Assembly (NCBI RefSeq): GCF_003149145.1
Contig: NZ_QGDQ01000006.1
Location: 62,001-126,000, forward strand
Direction: 5' to 3'
From: Quadrisphaera granulorum
GTDB lineage: Bacteria; Actinomycetota; Actinomycetes; Actinomycetales; Quadrisphaeraceae
DNA length: 64,000 nucleotides
The notes under the pieces are model-generated. The model did no database searches. It was not told the origin of the DNA and saw only the letters and a list, made by a program, of their open reading frames with translations. The position numbers and the translations under genes are program-made. Each line of letters starts with the position of its first letter. Positions within the stretch are counted from its first letter, which is position 1. Of the stretch, positions 10,299 to 32,976 are shown piece by piece.

Positions 10299-10350
10299 GT
10301 GATCATGGGCAGTTGGCCACCCTTGCCAGGTGGCCGACTGCCCATGATCA
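10299..10350. repeat. REP-like palindrome, copy A of the GTGATCATGGGC family
   Basis: Arms 10300-10321 and 10329-10350 are 22 bp with one mismatch around a 7-base loop. The ends read TGATCATGGGC and GCCCATGATCA. It lies between the convergent ScyD-like and hrpA genes, 18 bases from the hrpA stop. Related copies occur at 29612-31296, 32924-32976 and 58621-58729. Confidence 0.8.
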
Positions 10351-28658: not shown

Positions 28659-29617
28659 GCGCCGACGAGGCGGCCCGGAGCGCGCGGCTGGCTCCTGTCT
28701 ACGCGCGGGCGGTGCTGTCCGCGCGGCGCAAGGGGACGGCGGTCCGGGCGGCCGCTGCGGCGGGGGAACCGCTGGTGCTGCCGAGCGGGGCGGACGGGCG
28801 GCCCGCCGTCGTCGTGCATCCGGGTGTGGCGGTGGGGGCTGGTCGTGCGGCGGCGCTCGCGCGTGCCACGGGGGTGCCGCTGCGACCCGTGCTGCCGGTG
28901 GTGGGGCCGCACCTGCTGGCGTTCGCCGCGCAGCTCGAGCTGCTGTCAGCGGAGGACTTCCCGTTGCCGCTGCCCGGTCTGGTGCACGTGACGCAGGTGG
29001 TGCGCGCCAGCCGGCCGCTGGGTGTGGGGGAGCGCGTGGACGTGAAGGTGGTCGCGCGCGGGCCGCTGCCGCACGCCAAGGGCGCCGTCGTCGAGTTGAT
29101 GTCGACGCTGACCAGCGGTGGCGATGCTGGCGAGGTGGTCTGGGAGGGCGTGAGCGGCTACCTCGCCCGTGGCGCCACGGTGCCGGAGGGGCAGGCCGCC
29201 CATGACCTCTCGCTGCCCGAACCGGCAACGAGGGCGGCGGCCCGCTGGCGCGTCCCCGCTGACGCGGGCCGGAGGTACGCGACGGTGAGCGGGGATGTGA
29301 ACCCCATCCATCTGTCGAGGCTGGCCGCGAGGGCGTTCGGATTCCGCGGGGCGATCGCTCACGGCATGTGGACGCTGGCCCGAGCCGTCGGGCAGGTTGA
29401 GCCGCAGCTGGCAGCGGCCACCGCAGGGCCGGGCGGGGTCGAGGTGCGGGCGCGGTGGGGCTCGCCGCTGCTGCTGGGCTCGCGCGCGGTGCTGTGCGTG
29501 GAGCCGTACGACGCCGAGGGGGCGGAGGGCGGCTGGTCGCTCGCGGTGCGCTCGGGGACGCCGCTGCCGGGTGAGCGGGTGCACCTCACCGCGACCGCCT
29601 CCCCCCTTCATTCGTGA
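28655..29617 (+). CDS. MaoC-like (R)-hydratase/dehydratase
   Basis: A 320-residue hot-dog protein. The C-terminal hydratase-2 motif reads SGDVNPIHLSRLAARAFGF followed by RGAIAHGMW (about 210-240), with Asp and His as the catalytic pair. The N-terminal half resembles a second, non-catalytic hot-dog domain, as in double-domain MaoC proteins. It hydrates trans-2-enoyl-CoA in the pathway served by the preceding thiolase and FabG. ATG 28655 overlaps the fabG stop. The TGA stop (29615-29617) is part of the GTGATCATGG repeat at 29614, so the palindrome has supplied the end of this gene. Confidence 0.9.
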   Translation: MSADEAARSARLAPVYARAVLSARRKGTAVRAAAAAGEPLVLPSGADGRPAVVVHPGVAVGAGRAAALARATGVPLRPVLPVVGPHLLAFAAQLELLSAEDFPLPLPGLVHVTQVVRASRPLGVGERVDVKVVARGPLPHAKGAVVELMSTLTSGGDAGEVVWEGVSGYLARGATVPEGQAAHDLSLPEPATRAAARWRVPADAGRRYATVSGDVNPIHLSRLAARAFGFRGAIAHGMWTLARAVGQVEPQLAAATAGPGGVEVRARWGSPLLLGSRAVLCVEPYDAEGAEGGWSLAVRSGTPLPGERVHLTATASPLHS

Positions 29618-29684
29618 TCATGGACTCTGTGCATATCACCGACCGTGATCATGGGCGGTTGGCCACCCGCGAGGTGGCGGACTG
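29612..29684. repeat. Left half of nested REP-like palindrome, copy B
   Basis: Outer arm 29612-29626 (TCGTGATCATGGACT) and inner arm 29643-29654 (CCGTGATCATGG) are followed by a short hairpin, GGTTGGCCACC, loop CGCGA (29668-29672), then GGTGGC. In intact copies the sequence would go on to GCCCATGATCAC. Here it breaks after GGACTG (29684), where the IS110 element begins. Matching right arms lie at 31253-31264 and 31282-31296. Confidence 0.75.
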
Positions 29685-29685
29685 G

Positions 29686-29948
29686 GGGCACCTCCCGCTA
29701 ATGGGGTTGTACCGCGGTGGTGAGTCACCCTGGTACCTGAGCCGCCAGCAGGTGAGCACTTCCTCCCGCGGGTCGTGGAAGACCTTCCGCAAGAGCGTGC
29801 CCCAGCTGGTCGGTGAGGTGGTCTGCAGGGCTGGTGGGATGTCGTGCCACGCTCCGGCGTCGAGCACTGATCCATTAGGGCGCTCCGGGCTTCCTCCAGG
29901 CTCAGCATCAGAACTGGTCAGACAGCACAACGGGGGCGGTGATGGTCG
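29686..29948 (+). ncRNA. Candidate bridge RNA leader of the IS110 element
   Basis: The non-coding left end can fold into a hairpin, GTACC-GGTG with CACC-GGTAC (29709-29736), with a symmetric 2x2 internal loop. A longer stem-loop follows: GAGCGTG (29793-29799) with CACGCTC (29848-29854), and CCAGC (29802-29806) with GCTGG (29830-29834), leaving a lopsided 2/13-base internal loop. A stem-loop followed by stems with large internal loops is the general design of bridge RNAs encoded upstream of IS110-group recombinases. The guides are not established. Confidence 0.5.
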
Positions 29949-31220
29949 ATGTTGTTCATCGGCGATGACTGGGCAGAGGACCACCACGACATCGAGGTTG
30001 TCGACCCTGACGGACACCGGTTAGCGCGACGGCGCCTGCCAGAGGGGGTCAACGGCATCGCCACCTTGCACGCGATCGTCGCCCAGCACCTGGCACAGCC
30101 CGACGGCGACGGCGCTGGCGCTGGCGCTCTGGACGCGAGCCAGGTGGTGATCGGCATCGAAACCGACCGCGGGCCGTGGGTTCAGGCGCTGATCGCCGCC
30201 GGCTACCAGGTGTATGCGATCAACCCCTTGCAAGCAGCTCGCTACCGCGAACGACACACCACCTCAGGGGCCAAGAGCGATCCCGGGGACGCACACGCCC
30301 TGGCTGAGCTGGTCCGCCTGGACCGCGCCCACCACCGCCCCGTCGCCGGTGACAGCGCCCTGGCCCAGGCCGTGAAGGTCCTCACCCGGGCACACCAGTC
30401 GATGATCTGGTCCCGCCAGCAGCACGTGAACACCCTGCGTTCGACGTTGCGGGAGTTCTACCCCGGTGCGCTGGCCGCCTTCAGCGAGGAAGGTGAGGGC
30501 TTGGTCGGCATCGAGGCCGCTGCAGTGCTCGCGGCAGCCCCCACACCCACCGCAGGACGCGCACTCACCCAAACCAAGATCGAGGAGTTGCTGCGCAGCG
30601 CCGGACGGCAACGCTACGTGGCCGTGTGCGCCTTACGCATCCACACCGGTCTGCGCAGCCCGCAGCTGCCCGCACGCGAGGGCCTGGAGGTCGCCTACGG
30701 GGCCAGCGTGAGCGCTCTGGTCGCGGTCATCACCGAGCTGACCCGTCAGATCAGTGCCCTCGCCGAGCAGGTGAACGCCCATTTTGGCCAGCACCCGGAC
30801 GCTGAGATCTACCTCAGCCAGCCAGGCCTGGGGCCGGTCCTGGCCCCCCGGGTGCTCGCCGAGTTCGGAGACGACCCCCACCGCTACGCGACGGTGAAGT
30901 CTCGTCGCAACTACGCCGGCACCTCACCGATCACCCGCGCCTCGGGCAAGAGCCGCGCCGTCCTGGCCCGCCACGTGCGCAACAAGCATCTGGCCGACGC
31001 GCTGTACGGCCAAGCCCTCAGCGCACTGACCGCCTCCCCAGGAGCGCGCGCCTACTACGACGAACGACGCGCCAAAGGCGCCACCCACCACCAGGGCCTA
31101 CGCGCGCTCGGCAACAGGCTCGTCGGGATCCAGCAGGGCTGCCTACGCCACCACCAGCTCTACGACGAGAACACCGCCTGGGTCAGCAACCGCCCCGACC
31201 AACAACCGGCCGCCGCTTGA
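29949..31220 (+). CDS. IS110 family transposase (DEDD recombinase)
   Basis: A 423-residue recombinase. The RuvC-like DEDD residues are visible as Asp7 (IGDDWAE), Glu71 (VIGIETDRGP), Asp111 and Asp114 (KSDPGDAHALAELVR). A coiled middle section leads to the Tnp20 domain, with LSQPGLGPVLAPRVLAEFG, RRNYAGTSPITRASGKS and RAYYDERRAKG. The probable catalytic serine is Ser332 in TRASGKS. All motifs are intact and the frame is full length, so the element may be active. Tnp uses a bridge RNA to pair donor and target DNA. ATG 29949 fits the conserved N terminus. Confidence 0.95.
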   Translation: MLFIGDDWAEDHHDIEVVDPDGHRLARRRLPEGVNGIATLHAIVAQHLAQPDGDGAGAGALDASQVVIGIETDRGPWVQALIAAGYQVYAINPLQAARYRERHTTSGAKSDPGDAHALAELVRLDRAHHRPVAGDSALAQAVKVLTRAHQSMIWSRQQHVNTLRSTLREFYPGALAAFSEEGEGLVGIEAAAVLAAAPTPTAGRALTQTKIEELLRSAGRQRYVAVCALRIHTGLRSPQLPAREGLEVAYGASVSALVAVITELTRQISALAEQVNAHFGQHPDAEIYLSQPGLGPVLAPRVLAEFGDDPHRYATVKSRRNYAGTSPITRASGKSRAVLARHVRNKHLADALYGQALSALTASPGARAYYDERRAKGATHHQGLRALGNRLVGIQQGCLRHHQLYDENTAWVSNRPDQQPAAA

Positions 31221-31252
31221 CAGTTAGAGCCGTGGGATGTCTTGCGGGGGAC

Positions 31253-31296
31253 CATGATCACGGCCTGAGAGTGCTTTGGAAGTCCATGATCACGAG
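31253..31296. repeat. Right half of nested REP-like palindrome, copy B
   Basis: CCATGATCACGG (31253-31264) is the exact complement of the inner left arm 29643-29654. AGTCCATGATCACGA (31282-31296) is the exact 15-bp complement of the outer left arm 29612-29626. Removing the IS would restore a nested palindrome between the MaoC and DUF2945 genes. Confidence 0.75.
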
Positions 31297-32923: not shown

Positions 32924-32976
32924 CGTGATCATGGGCGTCCGCCACCCCGCGAGGGTGGCGGACGCCCATGATCACG
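32924..32976. repeat. REP-like palindrome, copy C (perfect)
   Basis: Arms 32924-32947 and 32953-32976 are 24 bp and perfectly complementary, with loop CGCGA. The ends are CGTGATCATGGGCG and CGCCCATGATCACG. It lies between the convergent fdhA and PPOX genes, where it could also terminate transcription. The loop is the same as in copy B. Confidence 0.85.

Follow-up and report, generated by a model that had tools for sequence, protein, structure and literature searches.

The window analysed here is a 64,000-nt stretch of the genome of Quadrisphaera granulorum (contig NZ_QGDQ01000006.1, positions 62,001 to 126,000 of the forward strand). An insertion sequence (IS) of the IS110 group lies in it, between a gene for a MaoC-domain protein and a small gene with an Hva1_TUDOR domain (PF11160, the DUF2945 of a preliminary description of the window), and is enclosed by the arms of a nested palindrome. 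The outer arms, TCGTGATCATGGACT and AGTCCATGATCACGA, occupy 29612-29626 and 31281-31295 and match exactly over 15 nt; the inner arms, CCGTGATCATGG and CCATGATCACGG, occupy 29643-29654 and 31252-31263 and match exactly over 12 nt. The preliminary description gave these arms and their lengths correctly, with right-hand coordinates 1 nt too high, and likened the insertion to the targeting of repeats by IS621. The features are collected in Table 1. What does the element recognise at this site?

Table 1. Features of the element, its target and the surrounding repeat, with positions in the window
Feature	Positions	Strand	Basis
Outer arm of the repetitive extragenic palindrome (REP)-like repeat, CGTGATCATGG (left)	29613..29623	+	repeat search; 346 genome copies of the 11-mer
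Inner arm of the REP-like repeat (left)	29644..29654	+	repeat search
Target module (26 nt), left part TGGGGGCACCTCCCGCT with the core CT at its end	29683..29699	+	
IS110-group element including both copies of the core CT; left end CTAATGGGG, right end GTGGGATGTCT	29698..31242	+	ends mapped in 81 loci; rejoining the flanks restores a module seen intact elsewhere
Predicted bridge RNA in the left end	29733..29895 (approximate limits)	+	conservation and covariation across 26 aligned left ends including the window
Candidate left target guide CCTCCCG (7/7 to the flank) and core guide CG	29762..29770	+	
Candidate right target guide CCGCA-AG, complement of CT-TGCGG	29787..29793	+	
Candidate left donor guide GTGGGATGTCGTGC, resembling the right end GTGGGATGTCTTGC at 31232-31245	29834..29847	+	repeat search; alignment
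Candidate right donor guide CCATTAG, complement of the left end CTAATGG	29872..29878	+	paired in 26/26 rows
IS110 transposase/recombinase, 423 aa, intact open reading frame, motifs FIGDDW, GIETD and KSDPGDA	29949..31220	+	
Core CT and right part of the target module, TGCGGGGGA	31241..31251	+	
Inner arm of the REP-like repeat (right)	31252..31262	-	repeat search
Outer arm of the REP-like repeat (right)	31284..31294	-	repeat search
Intact inner-type palindrome without module, arm GGTGGCGGAC-GC-CCATGATCACG; empty counterpart of the module-bearing arm	32924..32975	.	

The element is 1,543 bp long counting one core, with the core dinucleotide CT at 29698-29699 and 31241-31242. The product of its open reading frame scores above the curated cut-offs for both PF01548 (104.8 bits, cut-off 29) and PF02371 (50.1 bits, cut-off 21.3), which bears out the family assignment made earlier, and we take the three motifs listed in Table 1 to be those of a DEDD catalytic site. 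The only match by sequence to a protein of solved structure is with the IS621 recombinase (8wt6, E 4.1e-7). Non-coding ends of approximately 250 nt on the left (29698-29948) and 22 nt on the right (31221-31242) frame the gene. The longer, left end is conserved and covarying and holds the predicted bridge RNA, as in the IS110 group. The longer right end of the IS1111 group is not seen, the right end here being the shorter, and a search for inverted pairs of at least 10 nt found none joining the element ends in the manner of the subterminal inverted repeats (7-17 bp) of that group. The Rfam family RF02464 (Ms_AS-4, an actinobacterial small RNA) matches positions 30818-30899 on the minus strand, antisense to the transposase gene, with 50.9 bits and a gathering score of 50; it may represent an antisense RNA of IS110 genes.

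A single scan with the transposase yielded 359 relatives, of which we retained the best 80; with the window these make 81 loci. Among these best 80 the transposases are 53-70% identical to that of the window, and those with names come almost all from actinobacteria. Left ends of the form CTAATGGG and right ends of the form TGGGATGTCT, with variants, are common to the window and its relatives, and CT stands at both ends in 75 of the 81 loci. Of the other six, L089 reads TT/CT and an end is missing or was not found in L039, L094, L095, L101 and L108. We caution that this count is partly circular, because the search motifs contain CT. Independent support comes from the window itself, where the letters common to both junctions are CT; this is the core dinucleotide that the preliminary description had hoped to define. 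Joined at CT, the window flanks give TGGGGGCACCTCCCGCTTGCGGGGGA, a 26-nt sequence of which the genome has four further identical copies (contigs C5, C12 twice and C15). A left boundary after the G run TAATGGGG, suggested by the sharing of sequence with copies on C7, C25 and C37, was rejected when the ends of the relatives moved it to the core CT. A second IS110 gene, 30% identical, lies on C4, and an IS110 fragment on C65 (58% and 53% identical in two comparisons) has neither CTAATGG nor GGGATG on its own strand.

We aligned the left ends of 26 elements, the window included; with the core this end is 251 nt long. In the predicted stem-loops both sides have changed in 15 of 28 pairs, and 96.3% of cells are paired compared with 33.0-47.2% when the partners are slid. 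RNAalifold also pairs CTAATGG with CCATTAG, using standard pairs between columns 1-7 and 225-231 in all 26 rows; this we read as a donor guide pairing with the element end, and it is excluded from the covariation count.

As candidate target guides we took two variable stretches, each at a set distance from a conserved anchor. Those of the window match its flanks at 7/7 (CCTCCCG) and 5/6 (TCCGCA) positions, the best other flank in the set reaching 4/7 and 4/6. After removal of 13 of the 81 elements (five for their ends, eight for truncated flanks) there were 68, of which 18 lack an anchor, so that 50, the window among them, could be compared in fixed register. The left guide agrees with its own flank at 4.94 of 7 positions and with the flanks of others at 2.18, the right guide at 4.64 of 6 and 1.97, and the own-flank sums were reached by none of 20,000 permutations. 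Restriction to 42 unique guide pairs changes little (left 4.86 and 2.15, right 4.60 and 1.95; 0/20,000 each), and when all 68 elements are compared in free register the margin is smaller, 5.38 against 4.86 of 7 on the left and 6.60 against 5.34 of 8 on the right, again with 0/20,000 each. Agreement is best close to the core, with 27-38 of the 42 agreeing at each of the last five left positions and 40-42 at each of the last four right positions. The AG core of the right guide is no evidence, being fixed by the anchor. Target and donor guides complementary to the target and to the element ends, as seen here, are what the IS110 group displays. Since the guides of the relatives and the sequences into which they insert differ, the targeting of a repeat would be a property of the guide of the window element and not of its lineage.

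Two observations on the relatives are of interest for the guides. Candidatus Mycobacterium methanotrophicum (NZ_CP097320.1) carries many similar IS110 copies (L090, L096, L098, L100, L102-L104, L106 and L107) with flanks that share little beyond C-CT-GAC; they have no anchor and hence fall outside the fixed-register test. Such flanks suggest a loosely specific guide, and the copies provide a natural data set for guide rules. In Ornithinimicrobium murale (L069) a relative lies within what appears by eye to be a repeat, GGTAGCGTCCGCTCNTGCCGC, and other relatives may also target repeats.

The sequence matched by the window guides, CCTCCCG-CT-TGCGG, is located in a 26-nt module, TGGGGGCACCTCCCG-CT-TGCGGGGGA, within the right arm of the inner palindrome; the intact form is CTTGCGGGGG. 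The exact 14-mer CCTCCCGCTTGCGG has four copies elsewhere in the genome, all in modules beside CCATGATCAC. Congeners carry 0-12 exact copies each, and one of the four in G003 (L149) is outside a module. Ten modules were read in the genome: that of the window, one on C5, two each on C12 and C15, and one each on C26, C7, C25 and C37. Among ten further places with one mismatch or a looser pattern, one is a module (C15:31640-31910, 24/26 nt) and nine are not (14-18/26). Variants occur, with CTTACGG on C26, CTGGCAG on C15, and CTCGCGG and CGTGCGG in Rhodococcus plasmids. The 24-mer GGGGGYACCTCCCGCTTGCGGGGG is present in 22 of 396 genomes of the order, from six families, while its reversed control is found in none. 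Module matches were also obtained in 32 plasmid records, 20 of them from Rhodococcus with weaker matches in other genera, and in one phage record (27 of 32 nt at 96%); no viral contig searched holds the exact 24-mer. In the literature, a 79-bp deletion unit in the BCG (bacille Calmette-Guérin) vaccine strain contains the module letters (table in PMC9870133), the only actinobacterial occurrence in the literature searched, and a search of PMC3733652 and PMC10969869 for names of actinobacteria gave no match. The module was not found described as a mobile element in this literature; the M. tuberculosis REP (Tobes and Ramos 2005), left out of the comparison, may overlap with it.

Comparison with homologous sites shows that the module is itself an insertion. 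At eight of nine sites its 26 nt stand for exactly two bases, a net gain of 24 bp with no duplication; the replaced dinucleotides in the best pairs, with gaps of 0-5 tried, are TC, GT, GC, GT, GC, GT, GT and TG. At two sites the 40 nt to either side show no difference. One pair within the eight is poor (L140 and L183, net +21), and the ninth site, L160 and L221, is weak, with a net +23 and a poor right flank. L162 and L202 represent one site in two genomes, L142 and L192 were left out of the count as no alignment crosses the site, and L204 has no usable homologue. In the palindrome a module-free arm, GGTGGCGGAC-GC-CCATGATCAC or near to it, is seen in six of the loci read (L008, L019, L025, L030, L115 and L120, the first and third being one place), and other module-free arms have 3-nt spacers (CGT, TGC, CGC or TTC); the module-bearing arm is GGTGGCGGAC-(26 nt)-CCATGATCAC. 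The module does not show the combination of terminal inverted repeats and target-site duplication that marks a miniature inverted-repeat transposable element, there being no duplication at those eight sites.

The palindrome around the element belongs to a REP-like repeat. With up to one mismatch GTGATCATGG occurs at 18 sites in the window, where 2.2 are expected and the maximum of 100 shuffles is seven, and the 11-nt arm CGTGATCATGG has 346 copies in the 4.88-Mb genome (184 + 162) compared with none for the reversed control, so that chance cannot account for the arms. Five congeners hold 128-221 copies of the 11-mer per genome and seven genomes from three other genera of the family hold 3-23. 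REPs are short palindromes in more than 100 copies, often with inverted arm pairs, a description that the repeat fits, and inverted pairs approximately 40 nt apart recur among 100 listed places in the genome. The intact relatives of the inner palindrome reported earlier at 10299 and 32924 are present, the former with one mismatch in its right arm, and a nested copy without interruption, having two direct and two inverted arms, is seen at G000:C3:6430-6542 (G000 is the genome of the window). Halves of the nested palindrome also flank stretches of 500-830 bp at L018, L019 and L020 (G000:C1:485247-485852, C2:17468-18120 and C3:3760-4627). These prompted consideration of an origin of the repeat through a REP-associated tyrosine transposase (RAYT), which was dropped when PF01797 gave no match in the genome in a search that, as a control, succeeded in 5 of 14 genomes. 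The association of RAYTs with REPs is common and not strictly defining.

Three further modules of the genome, at C7:126081, C25:14127 and C37:24757, read CTAATGGGGA instead of CTTGCGGGGGA, with AATGGGG after the core. AATGGGG is the left end of the element itself. The hybrid sequence GGGGGNNCCTCCCGCTAATGGGG occurs in one of the 396 genomes, that of the window, at four places: the left junction of the window element and these three. Since the hybrid was found in none of the other 395 genomes, the three modules look like footprints, likely left by insertion followed by deletion between G runs; this reading is less certain than that of the window element itself, and the surrounding inverted arms may favour such a deletion. 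If so, the element would have hit four of the ten modules read. Could they instead be a natural variant of the module, which matches the element's left end by chance? The module does vary, as described above, and no two of the three copies agree in their left halves (CACC, CGCC and TACC), which makes a single inherited scar unlikely. Against a variant, none of the other 395 genomes yielded the hybrid, 21 of them holding the normal 24-mer, and it occurs in the one genome with this element, whose left end is CTAATGGGG. We regard a natural variant as rather improbable, though it deserves to be kept in mind.

Taken together, it is highly probable that the IS110-group element was inserted under RNA guidance at the core CT of the module, itself lodged in a REP-like palindrome. 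At the level of sequence comparison the ends of the element, the CT core, the match of guides to flanks, and the dispersed module with its empty sites are established. The locus would then consist of three layers. A REP-like palindrome would have stood in the gap between the two genes, the 26-nt hairpin module would have taken the place of two bases of the inner palindrome, in its right arm, a net 24 bp of apparently mobile DNA, and the IS110-group element with the bridge RNA in its left end would have followed at the core. The RNA would be made, bind the recombinase and guide insertion presumably by the mechanism of IS621, with a circular donor and strand exchange at the core. The element sits within the palindrome, it seems, because its guide matches the hairpin module lodged there. 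The preliminary description was right about the IS110 family, the IS621-like strategy, a target in repeat DNA and insertion within the palindrome; the recognised sequence is probably not GTGATCATGGGC, as it proposed, but the one matched by the guides in the module.

Several points weigh against this interpretation. The window RNA alone is no more stable than its shuffles (z -0.42), donor helix 4 is invariant and so offers no evidence of pairing, and an Rfam search matched no bridge RNA family, the Ms_AS-4 match antisense in the transposase gene being the sole one. The core of the left guide in the window is CG, not CT, and a dinucleotide other than CT occupies this position in 22 of the 42 unique guide pairs, the window included. 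The guide test excludes 13 of 81 elements beforehand and 18 of 68 in fixed register. Three footprints with the same junction call for three like deletions, or for copying, and the assembly is a draft. No second full-length copy was found in this 86-contig assembly, in which identical copies could be hidden, so targeting is not demonstrable by repeated full insertions; the consistent insertion into the repeat that the preliminary description looked for rests on one full copy and three putative footprints. It had also proposed that copies in unrelated sequence would speak against targeting. There is no match in five congeneric genomes at E 1e-30, and the relatives insert into many other sequences. 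Finally, it sought an empty site. The orthologous gap, examined by eye in the five congeners, has a related single hairpin in three and none in two, with the element and the target module in none. As the gap in these relatives never holds the module, the pre-insertion allele is deduced from paralogous copies.

Might the recombinase read the palindrome directly, through the GTGATCATGG arms or a cruciform, with the module incidental? Nine of the ten modules read in the genome, including that of the window, adjoin the CCATGATCAC arm, and the two are hard to separate because the arm-free tenth (C15:31640-31910) also fails the guide in its right half, CTGGCAG. The element was inserted, however, within the module and at a distance of 9 nt from the nearest arm, the module rather than the arm is what both target guides match, and all traces found of the element lie in modules despite 346 arm sites in the genome. 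Direct reading of the arms is therefore most unlikely. A still more remote proposal is that the arms are terminal inverted repeats of the element, carried along with it. They are inverted and on both sides of the element, as this would require, but the same arms occur hundreds of times without it, are uninterrupted in the nested copy on C3, and most of the 80 relatives end at motifs like CTAATGGG and TGGGATGTCT with other flanks. No second copy bringing the arms into other DNA was found. We discount this proposal almost entirely.

The features of the IS110 group that were tested are present in the sequence, so the element belongs to a known kind, and it is the target that is unusual. The core of IS621 is CT, the same as here. 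IS621 of E. coli, also of the IS110 group, has a bridge RNA with named CT core guides and a REP target (PMC11208160). Shared with it are the DEDD recombinase (PF01548/PF02371), the bridge RNA in the left end, the left and right target and donor guides, and insertion in a REP-type repeat. The recombinase is only distantly similar, though, and the target here would be a separate mobile 24-bp module in a REP-like arm and not that arm as such, in a presumed actinobacterial host. ISPpu9, ISPpu10, ISPa11 and ISRm19 are IS110-family elements inserted at one fixed position of REPs, and one of two IS1558 copies in M. tuberculosis is near a REP (PMC1525189, Table 1 for the latter). All copies of those four elements are in REPs, whereas here there is one copy with putative footprints, and the target module extends well beyond the genus. 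IS4321 and IS5075 reportedly insert in the inverted repeats of Tn21. ISKpn4 and ISPst6, of the IS1111 group, insert in attC sites (PMC11187229). Those four and the present element all enter a short structured segment of some other mobile element, under RNA guidance where this has been tested; the IS1111 group differs in having the RNA on the right and subterminal inverted repeats, in contrast to the RNA in a long left end. Insertion of IS110 elements in REPs and guidance by bridge RNA are already published (PMC1525189, PMC11208160, PMC11187229). The strategy itself is known, and the surprise would be a 24-bp mobile target. That the target of a bridge RNA could be read from sequence alone, with an explanation of the element's place in the palindrome, is also of value. 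The short insertion that the guide matches is scattered through many genomes, so that a single guide would have targets to find in many hosts.

All 24 module places counted outside the window's family in the 396 genomes were read, and in 21 of them the module is in an open frame with a transposase-type Pfam match (L152-L156, L158-L163, L200-L205, L207 and L209-L211). L157 and L206 gave no such match in the three frames tried for each, and L208 is ambiguous: its helix-turn-helix and cation-efflux matches are weak and do not share a frame. The matched residues enclose the module in 13 of the 21, in L159, L160 and L161 only at the edge or with a domain below the cut-off; in the remainder the module precedes or follows the match, and the true gene may therefore not include it. 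The 21 should not be counted as independent insertions, as sites recur: WVADI or WVADT, a motif of IS3-type transposases that directly precedes the module, is met six times, DCGFI twice and ELRIAII twice. In the transposase frame 16 of the 21 read PPQAGG, usually as PPQAGGAP(S/T). The gene is split at L160, L204 and L209, where the domains to the left and right of the module occupy different frames; the insertion may have caused this. Genome G001 too has module copies in genes, away from any arm. Transposase genes of several IS families carry the module within or beside them (L152-L163, L200-L211, L164-L166 and L168), with Pfam matches to IS3-type rve/HTH_21, DDE_3, Transposase_mut, ISL3 and DDE_Tnp_1.

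The Rickettsia palindromic elements and other small mobile repeats occur within and between genes (PMC2229807). They share with the module a small palindromic form and these locations. Its net gain of 24 bp at eight of nine sites would suit an insertion kept in frame, yet the flanking domains differ in frame at L160, L204 and L209, and it also occurs in a REP arm. In further contrast, it replaces a dinucleotide and is mostly in transposase genes outside the window's family. What agent mobilises a 24-bp hairpin in exchange for two bases, and, outside that family, mostly into such genes? The question is testable because the empty sites are clean. Tentatively, and at slightly less than even chances, we propose that the 26-nt hairpin moves on its own by dinucleotide replacement, mostly in one frame and repeatedly after the WVAD motif where it enters transposase genes, across the order and Rhodococcus plasmids, and that the IS110 element parasitises it under RNA guidance. 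If true, the module would be among the smallest mobile DNAs known, a transposon hitchhiker or an anti-transposon insertion. At L135 (G000:C12:9309-9766) two inverted modules are approximately 410 bp apart and the stretch between them ends in inverted similarity (CCTTGATCGTCG), like a small composite element; a similar inverted pair is located at G003:C24:2751-3110.

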